DNA of 64,000 nucleotides. Source: an uncultured Aquimarina sp. GTDB taxonomy: Bacteria; Bacteroidota; Bacteroidia; Flavobacteriales; Flavobacteriaceae. The notes under the pieces were generated by a model. The model was not told the DNA's origin. It did no database searches and saw only the letters and a list, made by a program, of their open reading frames with translations. The stretch covers positions 1 to 64,000 of the forward strand of contig CANMTP010000008.1 in NCBI GenBank assembly GCA_947500845.1. The letters run 5' to 3'. Positions 37,285 to 62,611 of the stretch are shown here, piece by piece. A program made the translations under genes and the position numbers. The stretch's first letter is position 1; each line of letters begins with the position of its first letter.

Positions 37285-38259
37285 TTACATATTTAATAAA
37301 TAAGCAAATAGTAAAGGTGCTACAATGGTAGCATCTGATTCAATAATAAATTTTGGAGTGTGAATATCTAACTTACCCCAGGTGATTTTTTCATTAGGTA
37401 CGGCTCCGCTATACGATCCATAACTTGTGGTTGAGTCACTTATTTGGCAGAAATAATTCCAAAAAGGAGTATCGGTACGCTCCATATCCTGATATAACAT
37501 GGGCACAACACAAATAGGAAAATCTCCTGCAATACCACCACCTATTTGAAAGAATCCAATGCCATTTTTAGAATTATCGGTATACCAATCGGCCAGAAAG
37601 GTCATATACTCGATACCAGATTTCATGGTACTTGCTTTCAGTTCACCTTTCATTACATAGCTAGCAAAAATGTTACCCATTGTACTGTCTTCCCATCCGG
37701 GTACTACCATTGGCAGGTTAGCTTTGGCAGCTGCGTACATCCAACTGTCTTTTATATCTATCTCATAGTATTGTTCTAACACACCAGATAATAACATTTT
37801 ATACATAAATTCGTGCGGAAAGTAGCGTTCTCCTGCTTCTTCAGCATCTTTCCAGATCTTAAAAATATGTTTCTGTAATCTTCTAAAAGCTTCTTCTTCT
37901 GGTATACAGGTATCTGTAACACGATTTAATCCTTGTTCTAACAATTCCCATTCCTGTTGTGGGGTTAAATCTCGATAATTTGGTATTCTTTTGTAATGGC
38001 TATGCGCCACAAGATTCATAATATCTTCTTCGAGATTTGCTCCTGTACAAGAAACGATGTGCACTTTATCCTGACGAATCATTTCTGCAAAGATTTTTCC
38101 CAGTTCTGCAGTACTCATAGCACCTGCAAGAGAAACCAGCATCTTTCCACCATGATCCAGTTGGGATTCATATCCTTTTGCAGCATCGACCAAAGTAGCA
38201 GCATTGAAGTGCAAATAGTAGTTTTCTATAAATTGCGATATAGCTCCTTTAGTCTTCAT
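37285..38259 (-). CDS. Deoxyhypusine synthase-like protein
   Basis: A 324-aa member of the deoxyhypusine synthase family (NAD-dependent transfer of the aminobutyl group of spermidine). Seen are LVSLAGAMSTAELGKIFAEMIR, VSCTGANLEEDIMN, and the C-terminal GAVPNEKITWGKLD, with the catalytic Lys expected in that loop. Bacteria lack eIF5A, and bacterial members often make homospermidine or carbospermidine-type products or remain unassigned. It overlaps the agmatinase gene by 11 bases. With arginine decarboxylase and agmatinase upstream, a polyamine product is well supported; which one is not. Confidence 0.88.
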   Translation of the reverse strand: MKTKGAISQFIENYYLHFNAATLVDAAKGYESQLDHGGKMLVSLAGAMSTAELGKIFAEMIRQDKVHIVSCTGANLEEDIMNLVAHSHYKRIPNYRDLTPQQEWELLEQGLNRVTDTCIPEEEAFRRLQKHIFKIWKDAEEAGERYFPHEFMYKMLLSGVLEQYYEIDIKDSWMYAAAKANLPMVVPGWEDSTMGNIFASYVMKGELKASTMKSGIEYMTFLADWYTDNSKNGIGFFQIGGGIAGDFPICVVPMLYQDMERTDTPFWNYFCQISDSTTSYGSYSGAVPNEKITWGKLDIHTPKFIIESDATIVAPLLFAYLLNM

Positions 38260-39190
38260 CTGAGTTATATTTTAAGCGATTCAAATTGTTTTCTTTTTGG
38301 TTGGTGTATAAATTCTCGTTCTCATCATCCTCATCCTGTTCTGCAAATTTGTAACTCAACATTTTATAGTATAATTTGGCAGCAGCAAAATCAGAGGATT
38401 TATCATTTTTATTAGGGCATAATTCTACAATATCAAATCCTACTACATTTTTTTCTTCAAATATTTTTTTAAGAAACTCAAGAGTTTCATACCATAATAA
38501 TCCCCCTGGTTCTGGTGTTCCCGTAGCCGGCAGAATAGAAGGATCGAGAGCATCCAGATCAAAAGTGATGTAAACATTATCTGTCATTAGTTCGATGGCG
38601 TTATCCATCCAATAATCATCTGTTGCCATTTCGTGAGCAAAGAACACATGATCTTCATTCATTACCAATTTTTCTGAAGCATCCATACTGCGAATCCCCA
38701 CTTGAATAAGGTTGGTGTTTTGATTGGCTTCATACAATGCACAGGCATGATTGTACTTAGACCCCTCATACTCTTTTCTCAAATCAGCATGAGCATCTAT
38801 TTGAACTACTGTTAAATCGTTGAAACATTCATCAAAAGCGCGTATAGCCCCTATTGCAATAGAATGTTCTCCTCCAAAAAGCGTCACAAATTTGTTGCGT
38901 TTTATAGTAGATTTAACAACATTGTGTACAGCTGTAACCATAGCTTCTGGCGAGGAGTTTTCATCAATGGCATCTGCGAGATAAATTCCTTGTTTGTATA
39001 CTTCGCTATTGGTCTCTATATCGTATAGCTCCATATTTTCTGAAGCGTGTAAGAACGCTTCAGGCCCTTTATCGGCTCCCTTACCCCAGGTACTGGTACC
39101 ATCGTAAGGAACAGGTATTAATACTACTTTTGATTTGTCATAGCCAGCATATTGATCAGGAATTCCGGCGTATGTTTTCTTAGTTTCCAT
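38249..39190 (-). CDS. speB: Agmatinase
   Basis: Hydrolyses agmatine to putrescine and urea using two Mn ions. The 313-aa ureohydrolase keeps every metal-ligand motif: GGEHS, DAHADLR and FDLDALDPS, with TPEPGGLLWYE after them. It sits directly downstream of arginine decarboxylase (22-base gap) and overlaps the deoxyhypusine synthase-like gene. The acidic C-terminus beyond residue 285 (EQDEDDENENLY) is an unusual tail. Confidence 0.93.
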   Translation of the reverse strand: METKKTYAGIPDQYAGYDKSKVVLIPVPYDGTSTWGKGADKGPEAFLHASENMELYDIETNSEVYKQGIYLADAIDENSSPEAMVTAVHNVVKSTIKRNKFVTLFGGEHSIAIGAIRAFDECFNDLTVVQIDAHADLRKEYEGSKYNHACALYEANQNTNLIQVGIRSMDASEKLVMNEDHVFFAHEMATDDYWMDNAIELMTDNVYITFDLDALDPSILPATGTPEPGGLLWYETLEFLKKIFEEKNVVGFDIVELCPNKNDKSSDFAAAKLYYKMLSYKFAEQDEDDENENLYTNQKENNLNRLKYNSDED

Positions 39191-51797: not shown

Positions 51798-52688
51798 TTA
51801 GTAACTCCACATATCCATTTCAAAATTTCGAATACTTTCTTTAATTCGTTCACTTTCCAGAAGTTGCATCAAGGCATTATCTACGATATAATCTGTAATA
51901 GAACGGTCACCTTGTTCATTATCTTCCTTATAAATAACAGAATTAAAGCGTCTTGCGTTGAGAATATGATCCAACGTAAAAGGCATTGATGTATTTCTTC
52001 TGTTAAACGCAGATGCATTATGAAGAATCTCTCTTACATCTGGATACCAAACCCAGAAAAGAGCTACCATATCAGGCTCATCATCATCAATAAAGTTAAC
52101 ATCTGGAGCAACAGGTGCTAATCCCAACATTCTGTATCTTAGTTCTCCTTGACGCTTATCAAAATACCAATATCCTCTGATTTTATATTCTGCAATATCT
52201 GCTGAAGTAATATCTCTTCTATTGATATATTGCGGATCAACAGTTTCACCGGCATTGTATTGCTCATATCCTAAATCTGTAGTATCTATCTTAGACATTG
52301 TAGATTCTAGATCCTGAAAAGTACGTGTTTCGGTAAAATATGAATCTGAATAAATATTTTTGATCTTACCGCTTTTAATATTCGATACCAGCACATCATA
52401 TAATGACCTACGGTTCACTCCAATATTATTAGTATCAATAGGGTAATACAATGGGAAATTTATACGCTCATCTAGATCGATAGTCTCCCAAGTAGTCTTT
52501 GCCCACAATACGTCACGCTTATCTACATAGGCATACTCTAGCGGGTGATCATTATCGTATAGGATTTGATCTTGCGTTTTCTTTCCAATATCACTGGGCT
52601 GATCAGCGTTTAGTACGTTGATTTGGCCGTATGAAATTATAGAAACGAAAAGACCTAAAACGGTTAATACAAAATTTCTCAAATTCAT
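51798..52688 (-). CDS. gldN: Gliding motility/type IX secretion protein GldN
   Basis: Periplasmic component of the type IX secretion system and gliding motor; GldN associates with the GldK ring at the outer membrane. The 296-aa product has a signal peptide ending at YGQ (residue 22) and the GldN pattern (LEYAYVDKRDVLWAKTTWETIDLDERINFPLYYP, FDKRQGELRYRMLGLAPVAPD, WVWYPDVREILH). It is last in the gldKLMN run, 15 bases after gldM. Confidence 0.95.
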   Translation of the reverse strand: MNLRNFVLTVLGLFVSIISYGQINVLNADQPSDIGKKTQDQILYDNDHPLEYAYVDKRDVLWAKTTWETIDLDERINFPLYYPIDTNNIGVNRRSLYDVLVSNIKSGKIKNIYSDSYFTETRTFQDLESTMSKIDTTDLGYEQYNAGETVDPQYINRRDITSADIAEYKIRGYWYFDKRQGELRYRMLGLAPVAPDVNFIDDDEPDMVALFWVWYPDVREILHNASAFNRRNTSMPFTLDHILNARRFNSVIYKEDNEQGDRSITDYIVDNALMQLLESERIKESIRNFEMDMWSY

Positions 52689-52703: not shown

Positions 52704-54251
52704 TTAATTTGTTAACTCAACAATTACCGGAGATATTTTCTTCAGCTTATATCCTGCATTTGTAGTTAACTGTGCTTTTATATCAATTATTTGTACAGAA
52801 GAACCTCTTTTAGCCTTACGTAAAGCAGATTTAGCTTTAGAATCTAATCTTCCTCCTCGAATGCTAACAGTAGGCTGACCTTCTACTTTAAATTTAAATC
52901 CTGTAACCTTTAATTTAATATCAAAATCAAAATCAGGTAATATTGCCCCAATAGAAGAAATCTCTAATGCATTTCTTGCCATCTTGATAGATCCGTCCTC
53001 ACCTCTTACAGTACCAACTGGTCTAGGAATATCCTTGATTCTAAATTTCTTACTATCACTTACCGTAGTACCGTTAGCAAGTTTACCACTCACTTTGATA
53101 CTAACTTCACGAGCTTTTACCGTAGTAACATTCATCATGTATTTACCAGCACCACCAGCTTTTCTTAATCCGGGAGCACTAGCATTTACGTTAGGAACAC
53201 CAGGAATAGAAATTGTCATTGGATTATTTACACCACGATATACGACATTCATTTTATCTGCCGATATTACCGCAGAATTTGGTCGAGGGATAACAGTATA
53301 AGAACTCTTAATAGGAATCTTTACTATAGAATCTCCTTCTTTAAACTCAAGTTCTCCAGCTACATCTCTTTCTCCAACATTACCCGCTGGGAAATCAAGC
53401 ATGATCTGTCCGTTCTGAACTTTGGTTTGCTCTTTGCCATTAACCATAACTTTGGTTGGCTTTAAGGTTGCGTCAAAACGTCCAAGAACGATTCTACCTT
53501 TAAACTTCTCGCCACTAAAGAAAGCTGTTTTATCAGCTACTACGATTGCTTCGTAGTTACTAAACGAAAGCTCTGAAGCCTGTTGTCCTGCTAATAATGC
53601 AGAAAGCACTTTGCTTTCAGTAGTCTTAACGTCAGCTTGCATTTGAGTAAGCTTTGTAAGAGAAGCTACTAATGGAAAACCTTCAAAACTATAGTTTAAC
53701 CATTTTTTGTTTACTCCTGAACGATCCTTTACATCTGCGGTAGCAAATGTTTTTAAAACATCATTAGCTACAGACTCATCCACTTCTTTTACTTCTTTAA
53801 TAACCGAAGCAACACCATCACGATATTTTTCAACATTATCTAGAAATTCTTGAGCTTCTGCTGTAACTTTTCCTCCTTCAAAAAACTTCTGGTCCAAAGC
53901 CAATGACTTATCCATAGTTTCATAATCTGTAGGATCACTTAAATCAGAAGTTAATTCTGTTTTAAGTTGCTCGATATATGTATTAAACTCATTTGAAAAA
54001 GCACTAATCTGATCTGCTTTTTCCTTTAATGGAGTGTATTTTTCTGGCTGTTCATTAACTTTTTCAGCCAAACCAGCCATAAACGAGTTATTTCTTTCTG
54101 TAGAGATTGCATTAGATTCGGTTAATTTTTCATTCATCAAACCGAATGCTGATAGTACCTCTTTAGACATATTTAATGCCATCATTGCGATGAAAACCAG
54201 ATACATCAGGTTAATCATCTTCTGCCTTGGGGATAATTTTCCTCCTGCCAT
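52704..54251 (-). CDS. gldM: Gliding motility/type IX secretion motor protein GldM
   Basis: Forms with GldL the proton-driven motor of gliding and type IX secretion. The 515-aa product starts MAGGKLSPRQKMINLMYLVFIAMMALNMSKEVL, the conserved single transmembrane helix of GldM that packs against GldL, followed by periplasmic domains rich in beta strands. The segment PRPNSAVISADKMNVVYRGVNNPMTISIPGV opens domain 3. It lies 46 bases downstream of gldL. Start and length agree with the family. Confidence 0.96.
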   Translation of the reverse strand: MAGGKLSPRQKMINLMYLVFIAMMALNMSKEVLSAFGLMNEKLTESNAISTERNNSFMAGLAEKVNEQPEKYTPLKEKADQISAFSNEFNTYIEQLKTELTSDLSDPTDYETMDKSLALDQKFFEGGKVTAEAQEFLDNVEKYRDGVASVIKEVKEVDESVANDVLKTFATADVKDRSGVNKKWLNYSFEGFPLVASLTKLTQMQADVKTTESKVLSALLAGQQASELSFSNYEAIVVADKTAFFSGEKFKGRIVLGRFDATLKPTKVMVNGKEQTKVQNGQIMLDFPAGNVGERDVAGELEFKEGDSIVKIPIKSSYTVIPRPNSAVISADKMNVVYRGVNNPMTISIPGVPNVNASAPGLRKAGGAGKYMMNVTTVKAREVSIKVSGKLANGTTVSDSKKFRIKDIPRPVGTVRGEDGSIKMARNALEISSIGAILPDFDFDIKLKVTGFKFKVEGQPTVSIRGGRLDSKAKSALRKAKRGSSVQIIDIKAQLTTNAGYKLKKISPVIVELTN

Positions 54252-54297: not shown

Positions 54298-54921
54298 TTA
54301 ACTTCTGTTCATTGCAGTTAACATACCACCATATACTCCGTTAAGAGAAGAAAGGTTACTAGCAAGGCTTGCCATTTGATCTTGAAGTTTTGCTGCATTA
54401 TCGGCGATAGCCTGGTTAGCTTCAGCCTGACGTGCAGAAGACTCTAGCTGTACTTTGTACAAGCTATTTAAAGATTCTAGGTGAGAAGCAGCACTAGCCA
54501 TTTCTTCACTATATTTTTTAGTACCTTGAATAGCATCTACTGTAGGAGAAATGTTTTTAGCCGCTCCTTCGAAGTTACGGATACTTTCACCTAAACTACT
54601 CATAAGGCTAGAATCTACTCTAGCTTCTTTAAGCATCTCGTCTAATTTTTTAGACAACATACCGTCTGGAGTCATATCTTTCTTATCTCTTTTGTTTCCT
54701 CCTGCTAATTCAGGATATACAAGAGACCAGTCTAATTCGTCATCTACAGGTTCGAATGCAGAAACAGTAAATACAAATGCTTCTGTAATAAGACCAATAA
54801 TAAGCATTTGATTACCAAATGGCCAGTGCATAATTTTAAAAAGTGCACCTAATATTACTACGGCCGCTCCTAGACCGTATACCATGTTCATTAATTTTTT
54901 GCTTGCTTTTGAATTTGCCAT
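54298..54921 (-). CDS. gldL: Gliding motility/type IX secretion motor protein GldL
   Basis: Cytoplasmic membrane half of the GldLM motor. The 207-aa protein has two helices (about 11-30 and 37-56). Charged residues lie inside the membrane segment: Lys29, His32 and Glu47, matching positions implicated in proton coupling. A coiled cytoplasmic tail follows (AAKNISPTVDAIQGTKKY ... SLASNLSSLNGVYGGML). It is encoded between gldK and gldM in the conserved order. Confidence 0.96.
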   Translation of the reverse strand: MANSKASKKLMNMVYGLGAAVVILGALFKIMHWPFGNQMLIIGLITEAFVFTVSAFEPVDDELDWSLVYPELAGGNKRDKKDMTPDGMLSKKLDEMLKEARVDSSLMSSLGESIRNFEGAAKNISPTVDAIQGTKKYSEEMASAASHLESLNSLYKVQLESSARQAEANQAIADNAAKLQDQMASLASNLSSLNGVYGGMLTAMNRS

Positions 54922-54996: not shown

Positions 54997-56370
54997 TTAT
55001 TTTTGATTCACAGTATTATCTTCTCCAGTCACGTCAGTACCCATATAGTCCTGAACCGTTCTAAATCCGATATAACTTCTCGCAGAATCAGCGTATTCGT
55101 AATCTCTGGTACTTACCTGTAGGAAATAAGCAACATCTTTCCATGATCCTCCGCGCACTACTTTACGTTTATTTTCATCATCGTTAACATTTGGGTTCAT
55201 TGATGATACGTATTCGTATGCTGATGGATCATAAGAGGACTGTACCCACTCAGAAACATTTCCTGCCATGTTGTACAGGTTATAATCATTAGGATCAAAT
55301 GTTCTGGCTTCTACAGTATATAAGAAATTATCTGCTGCATAGTTTCCTCTAAGAGGTTTAAAATTCGCAAGGAAACAACCTCTATCGTTCAAAGCATAAG
55401 GACCTCCCCATGGGTATGTAGCCGATTCGAGACCTCCTCTAGCCGCATACTCCCATTCTGCTTCTGTAGGTAGTCTAAAATAGTTTACGAATTCTTTTCC
55501 TTTCCTCTTTTGAAAGGTATTTTTTTCAATGGTTCTCCAACGACAGAAGGCTTTTGCTTGCTCCCAAGACACACCTACTACCGGATAATCATCATAAGCA
55601 CTATGCCAGAAATAATCATTATGCATAGGCTCGTTATACGAGTAACTAAAATCTTTAATCCAAACTGTTGTATCTGGATACACTTCTATTACTTCTTCTT
55701 TTACAAAATCTTTTCTTCCTCCTTTTCTAGCACGCGCTGCTGCCTGAATATCCATCCAAGTAAATCTAAATTTAAACTTACTTACATCTAAAGTGCGTCT
55801 TCCATTGTATGATTCTTCCAAAGGAACATACATAGTATCCATAACTTCCGCATAGAACTCATCTGGATAATCTTCAATATCCCATTCGATATCAATATCC
55901 TTATTAAGTCCTCGACCTTCATAACCAGTGGTTCCTGTACCACTGTAGTTATCGTACATATATTTTTCGTATACCGTCATATTTTCGGTATCGGCATCTA
56001 AGAATGCATACTCTCCAATACCATCATCACCAGGTGTTTTACCTAGTTCGTCGGCCATAATAGCAAGTCTCATTCGGATTGTAGAATCTCGAACCCAATT
56101 TACAAATTGTCTATACTCACTGTTAGTGATTTCGGTCTCGTCCATGTAGAATGAACGAACAGTAACCATTTTCGTTGGTGCATTTGCCAGCGCCGCTTTG
56201 TCATCATCAGATTTACCCATGATAAATGATCCTCCGGGGATGAGTGCCATTCCATATGGTTTCTGTGGGTGCCATTTTTTTCCTTGTGCTCCTACTAGTT
56301 CTCCGCGGCTTCCACCACCACAACTATAGAGCATTGCTAAAATAGCAAAGAGTGATACAAATTTCTTCAT
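54997..56370 (-). CDS. gldK: Gliding motility/type IX secretion lipoprotein GldK
   Basis: Outer-membrane lipoprotein forming the large periplasmic GldK/GldN ring of the type IX system. The 457-aa product has a lipoprotein signal with Cys17 (MLYSCGGG) and a formylglycine-generating-enzyme-like fold (ALIPGGSFIMGKSDDD, RSFYMDETEITNSEYRQFVNWV, RLPTEAEWEYAARGG, GNVSEWVQS, VRGGSW). The FGE catalytic cysteines are not needed for its structural role. It heads the gld run, 110 bases downstream of the arginase-fold gene. Confidence 0.96.
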   Translation of the reverse strand: MKKFVSLFAILAMLYSCGGGSRGELVGAQGKKWHPQKPYGMALIPGGSFIMGKSDDDKAALANAPTKMVTVRSFYMDETEITNSEYRQFVNWVRDSTIRMRLAIMADELGKTPGDDGIGEYAFLDADTENMTVYEKYMYDNYSGTGTTGYEGRGLNKDIDIEWDIEDYPDEFYAEVMDTMYVPLEESYNGRRTLDVSKFKFRFTWMDIQAAARARKGGRKDFVKEEVIEVYPDTTVWIKDFSYSYNEPMHNDYFWHSAYDDYPVVGVSWEQAKAFCRWRTIEKNTFQKRKGKEFVNYFRLPTEAEWEYAARGGLESATYPWGGPYALNDRGCFLANFKPLRGNYAADNFLYTVEARTFDPNDYNLYNMAGNVSEWVQSSYDPSAYEYVSSMNPNVNDDENKRKVVRGGSWKDVAYFLQVSTRDYEYADSARSYIGFRTVQDYMGTDVTGEDNTVNQK

Positions 56371-56480
56371 AACGTGTTTTAGGTTAAGATCTTCTAGATT
56401 TAAGGACGTAAACCTATTTATTTATTTCCAGAAAAACAATTTTTTTCTAAAAAAAACCTTAAATCAGCCTAATAAAAATG

Positions 56481-57644
56481 TTAAACTTCGTTTTTTCGTT
56501 TTGCCTTATACCATCTTTCAGGTATTTCTTGATTACAAGCACGCTCATAATCGCTGTATGTGCAAGGTAATAACGTATGTCTTTCCAATTTATTATTACC
56601 AGATGAAAGAAAAGGTATTTCTATCCACCATCTTCCGGTTTTTGCACTCTTGTAAAAAGACAAAATTTCATCATCGATGGGTACATTATAATGTAAGGTA
56701 CTTTTTTGATTCTTTATGTCTAGTTCGTTAGACCTATAATTAAATCCCTCTATAAAATACCAGATGATTTGGGCAATTAGCATCGATGTCATCTCTTCAT
56801 TCTTGAAATTCTTAAACTCGTAAATTCCAAAACTTTTCACTCTATCACTAATTCCTGCATATCTAGAGATAGTACAAATTTCTCTTCCGTCAAAACCATT
56901 AGGAGAAGAAGTAACGCCATTCATACTATTAGAATTCATAACCCCCAAATCAACTGAAACAATATCTGCATCTCTCATGATAGGCTCTACTATAGTCACA
57001 TCTGAAATAACCTCTCCCAAACGATAGGCATCAAAATATAATTTTTCTATGAGGTCGATCTCTTCTTGAGCATTGAAATAGGTTTGATATCCTATATTAC
57101 TATAATTAAAAAGATTATATGGTTGTTCGACAATAATTTTACCTATAAAAGAAGTATTAGTAATGGGTTCTGAAGAATTTCCCAAATCAAATTTACTATC
57201 TACATTAGCAAGGTTGACCATTCGCTCTAAAATATCAAAAGATCTGTATTGAGCATATACGAGGTCTTGACTTCCTCCTATTATAACCGGGATAATTTTT
57301 TTTTGTAGTAATGCCGACAATACTTCCTGAACCAAATAATAAGTATCGCTTACTTCGTTACCGGGATTAATATCACCAAGATCAGCGATGTTTACATCCC
57401 AGTTTCCCGGATAAAGCTCGTATAAGGACTTTCGTATAGTATCAAAACTCAATTTCTCTCCTAGAAAATTAACATCATTTCTATTTTCCTGAATCCCTAG
57501 AATTGCAATATCAGTTTTTTTTAGATCAGGAACCCCATTATCTGCCGTATGAATTTTAATTTGTTTCCCCAATGAATGATCTGAAAGCAATTTAGTATGT
57601 GCGGCAACCAAATCACTAACTGGAACAAGAAATTCGAAAGACAT
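56481..57644 (-). CDS. Arginase-fold (formimidoylglutamase-like) protein with degraded metal site
   Basis: A 387-aa ureohydrolase-fold protein usually annotated as formimidoylglutamase. Position by position against the arginase metal motifs: GGDHS reads GGSQD, DAHxD reads NVDSKFD (His replaced by Lys), and SxDxD reads SVDLG (second Asp replaced by Gly). The agmatinase at 38249 keeps all of these. I infer that it binds one or no Mn and may be a non-catalytic scaffold or regulator. It lies between topA and gldK, a placement I recall from other flavobacteria; a link with gliding or secretion is possible. Confidence 0.8.
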   Translation of the reverse strand: MSFEFLVPVSDLVAAHTKLLSDHSLGKQIKIHTADNGVPDLKKTDIAILGIQENRNDVNFLGEKLSFDTIRKSLYELYPGNWDVNIADLGDINPGNEVSDTYYLVQEVLSALLQKKIIPVIIGGSQDLVYAQYRSFDILERMVNLANVDSKFDLGNSSEPITNTSFIGKIIVEQPYNLFNYSNIGYQTYFNAQEEIDLIEKLYFDAYRLGEVISDVTIVEPIMRDADIVSVDLGVMNSNSMNGVTSSPNGFDGREICTISRYAGISDRVKSFGIYEFKNFKNEEMTSMLIAQIIWYFIEGFNYRSNELDIKNQKSTLHYNVPIDDEILSFYKSAKTGRWWIEIPFLSSGNNKLERHTLLPCTYSDYERACNQEIPERWYKAKRKNEV

Positions 57645-57647
57645 GTA

Positions 57648-60137
57648 TTACTTCTTTTTGGTTGTATTTTTCTTTTTAGCAGTTTTTTTCTTAGGAGCGT
57701 TTTTCTCGATAAGATCCTTTACCTTTTCTAAAGTTAATTTGGAGGCATCAACAGTTTTCGGTAATTCAATTTTAATTTTACCTTTTAAAATATTGCTCCT
57801 ACCCCATCTTGCTTTTTCTACTCGAATACCTTCTTCTTCCCAATTATGGATAACTTTATCAATTTCCTTTTGTTTCTTCTCCTCTATCAATGTAACGATA
57901 TCATTTTCTGATAAATTATCGAAATCATATTTCTTATTCACATTGATAAACATGTTGTTCCATTTAATAAATGGACCAAATCTACCTTTTCCTTTTTGAA
58001 CCGGAAGATTTTCATACATATATATAGGAGCATCGGCTTTTTCTTTAGCATCGATCAACTCGATCGCTCTATCCAGAGTAATATTAAGTGGATCCTCGCC
58101 TTTTTCAAGCGAAACAAACTTTTCTGCAAATCGAACATAGGGTCCAAAACGACCATTATTCACTACGATGGTCTCTCCTTTATATTCACCTAATTCTTTC
58201 GGCAACTGAAATAAATTCATAGCCTCTTCAAAAGAAATACTGCTTAATGTTTGGCCTGGAGGCAGACTTGCAAATTTAGGTTTATCTTCATCATCTGCAG
58301 TTCCTATCTGTACCATTGGACCAAATTTACCCAAGCGTACACTCACGACTTTACCTGTTGAAGGATCTTCTCCAAGAATACGTTCACCCACTTCTCGTTC
58401 TGCATTTTGCGCCACATCTTCTACTCTTGGATGAAATTCTTCATAGAACTCTCTCATTACATTTGTCCAATCTTCCTGACCTTCAGCGATTTCATCAAAA
58501 TCTTGCTCTACTTTTGCAGTAAAATTATAATCCAGGATTGAAGAAAAATGATTTACGAGAAAATCATTAACTACCATTCCTACATCTGTTGGGATTAGTT
58601 TTCCTTTGTCACTTCCTACCTTTTCGGAAAGTTTTTTCTCGTGTACCGAATCTCCCGAAAGTGTCATCTGGATGTAATTACGAACCTCACCTTCTTTAGC
58701 TCCTTTTTCTACGTAATTTCTATTTTGAATGGTTGAAATGGTTGGTGCATATGTTGAAGGGCGACCAATACCCAATTCTTCAAGTTTTTTAACCAAAGAA
58801 GCTTCTGTGTAACGGCTTGGAGGCCTGGTAAATCTTTCTGTGGCGGTAATATATTTATTAAATAGGGTTTCATTTACTTTCATCGCAGGAAGGATTCCCT
58901 CTTGCTCTTCATCTTCATCATCGTTCCCTTCTAGATATACTTTTAAAAACCCTTCAAATTTGATTACTTCGCCACTTGCCGTGAATTGATCATTATGCGT
59001 ATTCGCATCAATTTTGACATTGGTTCTTTCTAATCTTGCGTCACTCATTTGTGAAGCAATAGCTCGTTTCCAGATCAACTCGTATAATCGCTGCTGGTCG
59101 TAATCTACATTTACAGAATGCCTGGAAAAATCTGTCGGTCGTATTGCTTCGTGAGCTTCTTGCGCACCTTTTGACTTACCTTTATATTGCCTGGGATTAC
59201 TAAAATCTTCTCCGTAGGCAGAGATAATTTCAGCCTTTGCTCCGTTTTGAGCTTCTAAAGACAGGTTAACACTATCGGTTCTCATATAAGTGATCAACCC
59301 GGCCTCATATAACCGTTGCGCCATTGTCATGGTCTTACTTACAGAGAAATATAATTTTCTAGAAGCCTCTTGTTGCAGTGTTGAGGTTGTAAATGGTGGC
59401 GCCGGTAACTTTTTTGCAGGTTTCGTAGAAAGATCTGCAACTTTAAAGTTTGCACCTATATTTTTATTCAAAAAGGATTCAGCCTCTTCTCTGGTCTTAA
59501 AATTTTTAGGAAGCTTTGCCTTAAAGGACTTACCAGCTTCGTTAGAAAATTCGGCATCAATCCTATAGGAAGCTTCGGGTTTAAAATTGATTATCTCTCT
59601 TTCTCTCTCTACAATTAATCGTACAGAAACCGATTGTACTCTACCTGCAGACAACCCTCCTTTTACTTTACGCCAAAGCACAGGGGATAGCTCATATCCA
59701 ACCAGCCGATCCAAAACACGCCTAGCCTGTTGCGCATTTACGAGGTTATAATCGATAGTACGCGGATTTTCTATTGCTTTAAGAATTGCATTTTTGGTAA
59801 TCTCATGAAAAACAATTCTTTTTGTTTTATTTTTATCAAGTTTTAAGGTTTCGGCAAGGTGCCATGCGATGGCTTCTCCCTCTCGATCCTCATCACTTGC
59901 GAGCCATACCATCTCTGCATTCTTAGAAAGATCTTTCAGTTTTTTTACAACATCCTTTTTATCTTTAGAGACAATATATTTTGGTTTAAAATCACCATCG
60001 ACATCAACTCCTAATTCTTTTGAAGGTAAATCTGCGATGTGCCCAAAACTGGATGCAACTGTGTAATCTTTTCCAAGAAATTTTTCTATTGTTTTTGCCT
60101 TTGCAGGTGACTCTACAATCACTAAATTCTTAGCCAT
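57648..60137 (-). CDS. topA: DNA topoisomerase I
   Basis: Type IA topoisomerase relaxing negative supercoils. The 829-aa protein has the Toprim domain (VIVESPAKAKTIEKFLG, ASDEDREGEAIAWHLAETL), the gate region with active-site Tyr284 (GLITYMRTDSVNL), and C-terminal topo_C repeats (SVRLGKFGPMVQIG, NNGRFGPYVRFAEKF, KGKGRFGPFIKWN). It ends in a Lys-rich tail (KKKTAKKKNTTKKK). Zinc-finger Cys clusters are absent, common in this phylum. It stops four bases before the arginase-fold gene start, so the two are co-transcribed. Confidence 0.96.
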   Translation of the reverse strand: MAKNLVIVESPAKAKTIEKFLGKDYTVASSFGHIADLPSKELGVDVDGDFKPKYIVSKDKKDVVKKLKDLSKNAEMVWLASDEDREGEAIAWHLAETLKLDKNKTKRIVFHEITKNAILKAIENPRTIDYNLVNAQQARRVLDRLVGYELSPVLWRKVKGGLSAGRVQSVSVRLIVEREREIINFKPEASYRIDAEFSNEAGKSFKAKLPKNFKTREEAESFLNKNIGANFKVADLSTKPAKKLPAPPFTTSTLQQEASRKLYFSVSKTMTMAQRLYEAGLITYMRTDSVNLSLEAQNGAKAEIISAYGEDFSNPRQYKGKSKGAQEAHEAIRPTDFSRHSVNVDYDQQRLYELIWKRAIASQMSDARLERTNVKIDANTHNDQFTASGEVIKFEGFLKVYLEGNDDEDEEQEGILPAMKVNETLFNKYITATERFTRPPSRYTEASLVKKLEELGIGRPSTYAPTISTIQNRNYVEKGAKEGEVRNYIQMTLSGDSVHEKKLSEKVGSDKGKLIPTDVGMVVNDFLVNHFSSILDYNFTAKVEQDFDEIAEGQEDWTNVMREFYEEFHPRVEDVAQNAEREVGERILGEDPSTGKVVSVRLGKFGPMVQIGTADDEDKPKFASLPPGQTLSSISFEEAMNLFQLPKELGEYKGETIVVNNGRFGPYVRFAEKFVSLEKGEDPLNITLDRAIELIDAKEKADAPIYMYENLPVQKGKGRFGPFIKWNNMFINVNKKYDFDNLSENDIVTLIEEKKQKEIDKVIHNWEEEGIRVEKARWGRSNILKGKIKIELPKTVDASKLTLEKVKDLIEKNAPKKKTAKKKNTTKKK

Positions 60138-61126: not shown

Positions 61127-61165
61127 CACATTAATTGACCCCAATGGTTAATGAATTATTTTTTT

Positions 61166-62611
61166 ATGGAGAAGATTATTGATGAAAACATACAAGGACA
61201 ACCACTCGTTCTTGATCAGAAGCGAGGGAACAATCGTAAGCTTTTTATAGAAAGTTATGGTTGTCAGATGAATTTTAGCGATAGTGAAATAGTAGCTTCC
61301 ATTTTGGCCAAAGAAGGTTTCAATACCACCCAAAACCTTGAAGATGCCGACCTGGTATTGGTCAATACGTGTTCTATTCGAGAAAAAGCCGAGCAAACCG
61401 TTAGAAAACGTCTAGAGAAATATAACGCTGTAAAAAAAATCAATCCAGGAATGAAAGTGGGTGTTCTGGGTTGTATGGCAGAACGTTTAAAAAGTAAATT
61501 CCTGGAAGAAGAAAAAATAGTAGACTTGGTTGTTGGCCCCGATGCATATAAAGACCTTCCTAATTTAATTGAAGAAGTGGATGCCGGACGTAATGCAGTT
61601 AATGTAATTCTGTCTAAAGAAGAAACGTATGGCGACATTTCACCCGTACGTTTGCAAAGTAATGGCGTTTCTGCTTTTGTATCGATTACCAGAGGTTGCG
61701 ACAATATGTGCACTTTTTGCGTAGTCCCTTTTACCAGAGGAAGAGAACGAAGTCGTGACCCCCAAAGTATTCTGCAAGAAATTGATGAATTAGCAACTCA
61801 GAATTTCAAAGAAGTCACACTATTAGGACAAAATGTAGATAGTTATTTATGGTATGGCGGTGGACTTAAGAAAGATTTCAATAAAGCTTCTGACTTCCAG
61901 AAAGCAACCTCGGTAAATTTTGCTAAACTATTGGATATGGTTGCTGAAAAACACCCGAAACTTAGATTGCGTTTTACTACATCAAACCCACAAGACATGA
62001 CCTTGGATGTGATTGAAGTTATGGCGAAGCACAAAAACATATGTAAATACATTCACCTGCCCATACAAAGTGGAAGTGATCGTATTCTAAAAGAGATGAA
62101 CCGATTGCATACGCGCCAAGAATACTTTGATTTGATAGATAATATTAAAAAAATGATTCCAGAGTGTGCGATATCGCAAGACATCATTACAGGATTCCCT
62201 ACAGAAACTGAAGAAGACCATCAGGATACTTTATCTCTAATGAAATATGTAAAATACGATTACGGCTTCATGTTTGCCTATTCTGAAAGACCAGGAACAC
62301 TAGCCGAACGTAAAATGGAGGATGATGTTCCTGAGGAAGTTAAGAAAAGACGCCTTGCAGAGATTATTGGGCTACAACGTAAGCATAGCGAGTATCGACA
62401 TCGTGCCTTTATTGGACAAACATTAGAGGTTCTGATCGAAAAAGAATCAAAAAAATCTGATGCCCATTGGAGCGGAAGAACCACTCAAAATACCGTAGCA
62501 GTTTTTCCGAAAGGGGCTTATAAAATAGGAGATTTTGTCATGGTTCGTATTGATGATTGCACGAGTGCCACCTTGCTAGGAGAAGCTGTGGGGTATTCAG
62601 AAAATAATTGA
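61166..62611 (+). CDS. miaB: tRNA-2-methylthio-N6-dimethylallyladenosine synthase MiaB
   Basis: Radical-SAM methylthiotransferase modifying A37 of tRNAs. The 481-aa protein has the N-terminal UPF0004 domain with its three cluster cysteines (SYGCQMNFSDSE, VNTCSIREKAE, LGCMAERL), the radical-SAM motif RGCDNMCTFCVVPFTRGRERSR, and a C-terminal TRAM domain. I use ATG 61166 (MEKIIDEN); five extra residues from the upstream ATG at 61151 are also possible. It is followed after 26 bases by the sigma-54 activator gene. Confidence 0.96.
   Translation: MEKIIDENIQGQPLVLDQKRGNNRKLFIESYGCQMNFSDSEIVASILAKEGFNTTQNLEDADLVLVNTCSIREKAEQTVRKRLEKYNAVKKINPGMKVGVLGCMAERLKSKFLEEEKIVDLVVGPDAYKDLPNLIEEVDAGRNAVNVILSKEETYGDISPVRLQSNGVSAFVSITRGCDNMCTFCVVPFTRGRERSRDPQSILQEIDELATQNFKEVTLLGQNVDSYLWYGGGLKKDFNKASDFQKATSVNFAKLLDMVAEKHPKLRLRFTTSNPQDMTLDVIEVMAKHKNICKYIHLPIQSGSDRILKEMNRLHTRQEYFDLIDNIKKMIPECAISQDIITGFPTETEEDHQDTLSLMKYVKYDYGFMFAYSERPGTLAERKMEDDVPEEVKKRRLAEIIGLQRKHSEYRHRAFIGQTLEVLIEKESKKSDAHWSGRTTQNTVAVFPKGAYKIGDFVMVRIDDCTSATLLGEAVGYSENN

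Follow-up and report, generated by a model that had tools for sequence, protein, structure and literature searches.

To our knowledge, the characterised hydrolases of the ureohydrolase superfamily need both metal sites. Among the described relatives of the protein analysed here, the arginase-like protein of T. brucei (4rhm), which we take to share the ureohydrolase fold but to lack a functional metal site, is eukaryotic, belongs to another context, and stands at rank 47 among the fold matches. A second comparison is offered by metformin hydrolase, whose metal-free subunit MetCb (MfmB) is described as a pseudoenzyme and protein binder; in the MetCb clade three to five of the six metal ligands are changed, and MetCb pairs with an adjacent active paralog (PMC11271267). 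The protein described below resembles MetCb in its ureohydrolase fold and in the loss of several ligands, with three of six changed and thus within the three-to-five range of that clade, whereas its gene has no such active neighbour in the window. The third system is the PorP/SprF-GldKLMN operon of the type IX secretion system (T9SS), with which the gene shares its neighbourhood across many families. It is kept in genomes in which SprA and GldM were not found, and 15 genomes with both give no match to it. Within the open-licence literature, we found no paper joining gldK to arginase and T9SS or to formimidoylglutamase, formiminoglutamase to gliding in Flavobacterium, or formimidoylglutamase to topoisomerase in Bacteroidetes, and nothing for the locus tag Fjoh_1852; arginase and formimidoylglutamase go unmentioned in the available part of PMC7440613.

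The window, that is, the whole 64,000-nucleotide stretch of an uncultured Aquimarina contig that was analysed, carries topA, the gene of interest (hereafter pseudo-ureohydrolase), gldK, gldL, gldM, and gldN in this order, all on the minus strand. Its features are as follows.

56481..57644, minus strand: pseudo-ureohydrolase, 387 amino acids plus stop, open reading frame with ATG start (Pfam Arginase, 51.5 bits, cut-off 22)
56739..57644, minus strand: arginase-fold domain, residues 1–302 (best structural alignment to 4mxr_A)
56484..56738, minus strand: family-specific C-terminal domain, residues 303–387 (from alignments)
57264..57278, minus strand: GGSQD, residues 123–127, His ligand replaced by Gln, D127 kept (alignment)
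57186..57200, minus strand: DSKFD, residues 149–153 within NVDSKFD, D149 and D153 kept, His ligand replaced by Lys (alignment)
56943..56957, minus strand: SVDLG, residues 230–234, D232 kept, second Asp replaced by Gly (alignment)
57648..60137, minus strand: topA, DNA topoisomerase I (Pfam Topoisom_bac, Toprim_C_rpt, and Toprim)
56371..56480, minus strand: 110-bp gap preceding gldK, with a promoter-like element at 56409–56439 (TTG-N20-TAGGTTTA; relaxed pattern)
54997..56370, minus strand: gldK (TIGR03525, 605 bits, cut-off 350)
54298..54921, minus strand: gldL (TIGR03513, over cut-off)
52704..54251, minus strand: gldM (TIGR03517, over cut-off)
51798..52688, minus strand: gldN (TIGR03523, over cut-off)
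38249..39190, minus strand: agmatinase-type paralog with all six ligands, used as comparison protein (open reading frame and alignment)

Orthologs at 71–90% identity are present in ten named loci (L075–L084), nine from Aquimarina and one from an uncultured Flavobacteriaceae bacterium. Against eight Aquimarina orthologs, dN/dS of the pseudo-ureohydrolase ranges from 0.046 to 0.127, indicating strong purifying selection on the gene.

The AF2 model of the full protein, computed with 40 sequences, reaches a pLDDT of 88.8 and a pTM of 0.91 and shows the ureohydrolase fold up to about residue 305. In VIA-align, T. cruzi formiminoglutamase (4mxr_A) superposes with a Z of 33.9 (rmsd 2.2, 276 aligned residues, 17% identity, model residues 21–305) and B. 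subtilis HutG (3m1r) with a Z of 31.9, and the likeness to these two HutG structures extends over about residues 19–306. Moreover, PF00491 matches above its gathering score, while the six-ligand binuclear metal centre of the superfamily is not present. A tree of 37 proteins places the 33 family rows on one branch (support 99/99), apart from HutG, agmatinase, and the two out-of-class relatives L073 and L074; it is midpoint-rooted, its bootstrap is not fully settled, and the agmatinase and f2 branches are very long. L074 retains all six ligands and L073 five. The simplest history would comprise a single loss of the second metal site and a single acquisition of the C-terminal domain, both preceding the spread of the family.

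At the six ligand positions the window protein reads Q D K D D G, compared with H D H D D D in the complete-site HutG of the same genome. Thus, three of six ligands are altered, one per motif, and three aspartates are retained, while the agmatinase at 38249–39190 carries GGEHS, DAHAD, and DLDALD. To follow these positions through the family, 197 members (196 distinct sequences, the window included) were aligned together with the genome's own HutG and the agmatinase; the set is weighted to the window's own family (80 named loci plus same-family loci), and all ligand statements refer to aligned residues, not to pocket geometry. No member keeps six or five ligands; 23 members retain four, 152 retain three, 14 retain two, 7 retain a single one, and 1 has lost them all. 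The ligands of the second metal only, which we take to correspond to H126 and D234 in arginase-1 numbering, are found as His in 5 and as Asp in 6 of the 197 members, and never together; at the position of this His, 120 members have Lys or Arg. In contrast to this loss, the first-metal aspartates D149, D153, and D232 are jointly kept in 173 members, though with the His in only 20. Further, Q187 occurs in 197 of 197 members, D127 in 191, and E276 in 148, with N, G, S, or D at position 276 in the remaining 49. The second metal site is gone family-wide and the first is partly kept, as read from the aligned residues. Low dN/dS, together with the lack of any member with more than four ligands, makes the altered motifs unlike chance or a decaying gene.

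These data bear directly on the preliminary description, which had reported that GGSQD, NVDSKFD, and SVDLG are altered while the agmatinase of the same window is intact; the letters are exactly as quoted there. Its ureohydrolase ancestry is borne out by structure prediction and superposition, and the alignment of orthologs that it proposed confirms the altered residues across the family. Its wording that the protein had lost its metal site holds for the second metal, whose ligands never occur together, and goes too far for the first, whose three aspartates mostly persist.

Ten listed members from families f2 and f5 retain zero to two of the six ligands and still keep the gene; labels such as f3 or g15 are arbitrary numbers for families and genera, not taxon names. 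The f2 orthologs L063–L067 sit on a very long branch, keep one of the six ligand positions, have a changed C-terminal domain, and have topA in the same locus. The f5 orthologs L068–L072 are degenerate, and L069, L070, and L072 are also short; in L068, L069, L070, and L072 the opposite-strand neighbour genes form one cluster, of which the L069 member matches OmpA. As a separate observation, a third arginase-family open reading frame of the genome (L003, G000:C19:49493–50050) has GGDCG at the expected His ligand and keeps DAHAD and DFD.

The second hallmark of the family is the C-terminal domain. Every one of the 197 members has 60 residues or more within the corresponding alignment region, and positions with one residue in at least 93% of members number 10 of 85 in this domain and 34 of 302 in the arginase domain, so that both are about equally conserved in the 197-member alignment. 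F330, S333, W339, W340, C361, and Y366 are each found in at least 96% of members, with W339 at 100% after rounding and C361 at 99%. A counterpart of the domain is absent from the genome's own HutG, L073, and L074 in the alignment, and no match from outside the class extends past query residue 321. A profile of the domain was significant in 23 of 28 related genomes, always inside an open reading frame of pseudo-ureohydrolase size. No stand-alone copy reached significance in the 28 genomes (next matches at E 0.026 or weaker), in a search whose profile misses the protein itself in at least one genome: of the five genomes without a significant match, G012 (f2) carries the protein and scores E 0.68. 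The domain is strongly changed in f2. Modelled alone (pLDDT 76.9, moderate), it gave no Foldseek match at E ≤ 0.001, and the best VIA Z was 3.6.

The position between topA and gldK recurs. The order topA, gene, gldK occurs in 29 of 29 same-family loci and in 79 of 80 named loci. Forty further loci from 31 families were hand-chosen among high-scoring profile rows, which may overstate linkage; 29 of them have topA, the gene, porP, and gldK in one row on a single strand, and of the rest, three have topA and porP at a contig end, three topA only, one porP and gldK without topA, and four none. By the measure of core-gene linkage, then, the gene behaves like a T9SS component, with gldK linked in 30 of these 40 loci as well. 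Neither topA nor gldK is linked in the loci of f3 (9), f4 (10), f5 (5), f8 (7), and f9 (2); in f2, topA is present in five of five loci, within 2 kb in only two, and gldK is linked in none of those fetched. The topA tie is likewise absent in loci of f85, and in f6 and f91, where porP and gldK remain. Neighbours in f3, f4, f5, and f8 include thioredoxin-like, S13 peptidase, OmpA, and ferredoxin reductase-like genes, and no common partner was seen among them. On the far side of topA, miaB lies on the opposite strand in the window (61151–62611) and in many of the 40 other-family loci; the conserved block thus reaches past the T9SS genes.

Gene spacing separates the two sides of the gene. The gap to topA measures 3 bp in the window and does not exceed 15 bp in 68 of the 80 named loci, which makes co-transcription with topA likely; in other families it is at most 17 bp in 15 of 35 loci and larger in 20, up to 1045 bp. 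Towards the T9SS genes, the gap is at least 87 bp in all 112 loci measured (gldK, 88–195 bp in 79 loci; porP, 87–1284 bp in 33 loci), and consequently the T9SS operon probably begins downstream of the pseudo-ureohydrolase gene. Applying what we assume to be the promoter consensus to the gldK gap, a relaxed pattern written after viewing the window matched 78 of 79 named, mutually related loci, compared with 10.5 in single-base shuffles; the strict pattern matched 2 of 79 and is absent in the window. We regard this as no more than a hint of a promoter preceding gldK. The closeness to gldKLMN emphasised in the preliminary description is therefore a recurrent trait of many families, and the co-transcription with topA that it stated is likely as a prediction from spacing.

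Presence and absence of the gene tell a different story from linkage. With the family profile, 366 of the 395 genomes drawn from the class give a match (E ≤ 1e-5). Three of these matches (G349, G380, and G378), with best E values of 4.5e-16 to 1.9e-21, are no stronger than those of HutG and possibly lie outside the family. SprA is matched in 385. Gene and SprA occur together in 362 genomes, SprA without the gene in 23, the gene without SprA in four (G002, G347, G517, and G634), and neither in six; nine gene-negative class genomes were identified by absence from the profile-match rows. Seven of the 23 SprA-positive, gene-negative genomes are drafts less than 80% complete, and GldM is present in 15 of the other 16, all of which were searched. 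At the gldM locus in 14 of these 15 genomes no match to the gene was found, with one contig cut near porP. Since the gene is missing from genomes with SprA and GldM, even at the gldM locus, its presence tracks lineage more than T9SS.

The converse case is found in genus g15 of family f3, of which 60 genomes were searched with the models for the gene, SprA, and GldM. The gene is present in all 60, SprA in 18 (none found in 42), and GldM over cut-off in 51. Nine genomes have neither SprA nor GldM above cut-off (G517, G669, G679, G695, G700, G707, G712, G716, and G720), T9SS status being judged by these two models only, and all nine carry the gene as a nearly full-length match with E below 1e-145; G679, G707, and G716 consist of one contig each. 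Five of the nine (G517, G695, G700, G712, and G720) have no second arginase-family match, G695 being 85% complete. The gene is thus separable from SprA and GldM in nine g15 genomes and from a ureohydrolase partner in five. A GldK search in two g15 genomes found G002 over cut-off and a best score of 95.5 bits in G517 (cut-off 350). T9SS sorting-domain matches number one to three in each of 25 g15 genomes searched, SprA-positive ones included, and hence do not discriminate. GldM over cut-off without SprA occurs in 33 of the 60 genomes, and GldM is split over two open reading frames in G701; in g15 the motor seems to outlast the translocon. Two further candidates were set aside. G347, a draft of f64, was dropped as a T9SS-negative carrier because it shows at least 148 matches to the T9SS sorting domain, so that the lack of SprA and GldM probably reflects assembly gaps, and G634 (85% complete, no SprA) was not counted, as GldM and GldK are present. 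Gene presence does not follow SprA and GldM, and the recruitment to gliding or type IX secretion suggested in the preliminary description finds no support on either side of this comparison.

We propose that the gene encodes a class-wide non-catalytic pseudo-ureohydrolase, soluble and made together with topoisomerase I, which would act by binding and would not need the T9SS, and we give this reading an even chance of being right. Sequence, model, and tree support a non-catalytic ureohydrolase that descends from a formiminoglutamase-like protein, has had its second metal site taken apart, and has gained some 85 residues as a C-terminal domain. Solubility and joint production with topoisomerase I are suggested by gene spacing. 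The protein would bind rather than hydrolyse: its old pocket, with three aspartates and the invariant Gln, may accommodate a small ligand or one metal ion, or contain no more than an internal salt bridge, the last in keeping with the Lys or Arg found in place of the second-site His in 120 of 197 members, while the C-terminal domain may contact a partner. Its role would be one of housekeeping, not specific to the T9SS, and the adjacency to gldKLMN would reflect an old shared gene order. This reading draws on the fold, the ligand loss, the C-terminal domain, purifying selection, the match in 366 of 395 genomes, the topA spacing, and the retention in g15, and also on the invariance of Q187, the single family branch, the sole PF00491 match in 8 of 30 genomes, and the complete HutG elsewhere. 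Several findings speak against it. That the three aspartates survive in 173 of 197 members, in 20 of them alongside the His, is more than a purely structural relic needs and leaves room for a mononuclear enzyme; the recurring porP-gldKLMN neighbourhood exceeds expectation if the two were unrelated; the topA tie is missing in f3, f4, f5, f8, f9, f85, f6, and f91, and the gap exceeds 17 bp in 20 of 35 other-family loci; and in G012 of f2 the C-terminal domain has diverged beyond what its profile picks up at a significant level (E 0.68).

Four other readings were considered. An ordinary formimidoylglutamase that holds two metals by other residues is hardly credible: although the best structural match is a formiminoglutamase and all 25 members of A1 match the NCBIfam HutG model TIGR01227 at E ≤ 0.001, the window protein scores 68.4 bits against an equivalog cut-off of 229.15 and has neither second-site ligand. 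Moreover, the genome encodes a HutG with all six ligands elsewhere (L205:7733–8686, minus strand, contig C1), flanked by genes that, from their translations, we take to be hutU, hutI, and hutH. Pseudo-ureohydrolase and this HutG share D127 (GG-x-x-D) and Q187, both of which the agmatinase lacks, but they differ in the three changed ligands, the sub-cut-off score, the extra C-terminal domain, and the location outside the hut operon, between topA and gldK. With its score, its ligands, and a complete HutG in the hut operon, an active HutG was rejected. Highly improbable, too, is that the protein assists an active ureohydrolase as a regulator or structural subunit, in the way MetCb does for MetCa of metformin hydrolase, even though chains of the latter rank among the best matches in both sequence and fold and the three changed ligands fall within the span of the MetCb clade (PMC11271267). 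No adjacent ureohydrolase gene exists in the 64-kb window, and PF00491 has a single match in 8 of 30 chosen genomes, at the pseudo-ureohydrolase position in seven, the eighth being G553. As 13 of the 30 were picked for having no second match, this count shows that such genomes exist but gives no frequency; it led us to discard such a partnership as the general role.

Better placed, if still unlikely, is a mononuclear or metal-free hydrolase or lyase, in which the three surviving aspartates would act on some substrate together with E276 and the invariant Gln. The joint conservation of D149, D153, and D232, the near-invariance of D127, and E276 in 148 members favour such an enzyme, while both metal sites are intact in no member, position 276 varies in 49, and the listed f2 and f5 members keep the gene with two ligands or fewer. 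We likewise consider it improbable, to a similar degree, that a dead ureohydrolase was recruited as a T9SS or gliding accessory, either as an adaptor that serves the GldLM motor from the cytoplasm or as a regulator of porP-gldKLMN. The row of topA, gene, porP, and gldK in 29 of 40 loci, the near-constant gldK link in same-family and named loci, and the profile match in 362 of 385 SprA-positive class genomes speak for it. Against it stand the g15 genomes that keep the gene with neither SprA nor GldM, three of them in one contig, the SprA- and GldM-positive genomes without it, the spacing of at least 87 bp to porP or gldK, and the missing gldK link in the fetched loci of f2, f3, f4, f5, f8, and f9. 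Given where the gene does and does not occur relative to SprA and GldM, we set a T9SS-only role aside as the main reading.

The binding, non-catalytic pseudo-ureohydrolase that we favour thus concerns a gene matched in 366 of the 395 genomes sampled from a large bacterial class, for which the label formimidoylglutamase, expected from automatic pipelines in the preliminary description, would mislead. It combines a metal-hydrolase fold without the second metal site with strong selection and a place between topoisomerase I and the T9SS motor. That a dead ureohydrolase can serve as a protein binder is exemplified by MetCb (PMC11271267). Retention without SprA and GldM directs tests away from gliding and onto a housekeeping role, and Q187, the three aspartates, W339/W340, and C361 are marked as residues for mutation. 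A further step, which we regard as a long shot, is that this is an undescribed core protein of the class, a dead ureohydrolase in which the old pocket would detect a metabolite or one metal ion and the C-terminal domain would relay the signal, either to topoisomerase I or to the expression of the adjacent secretion motor; if so, DNA topology or envelope secretion would follow nitrogen or amine status.
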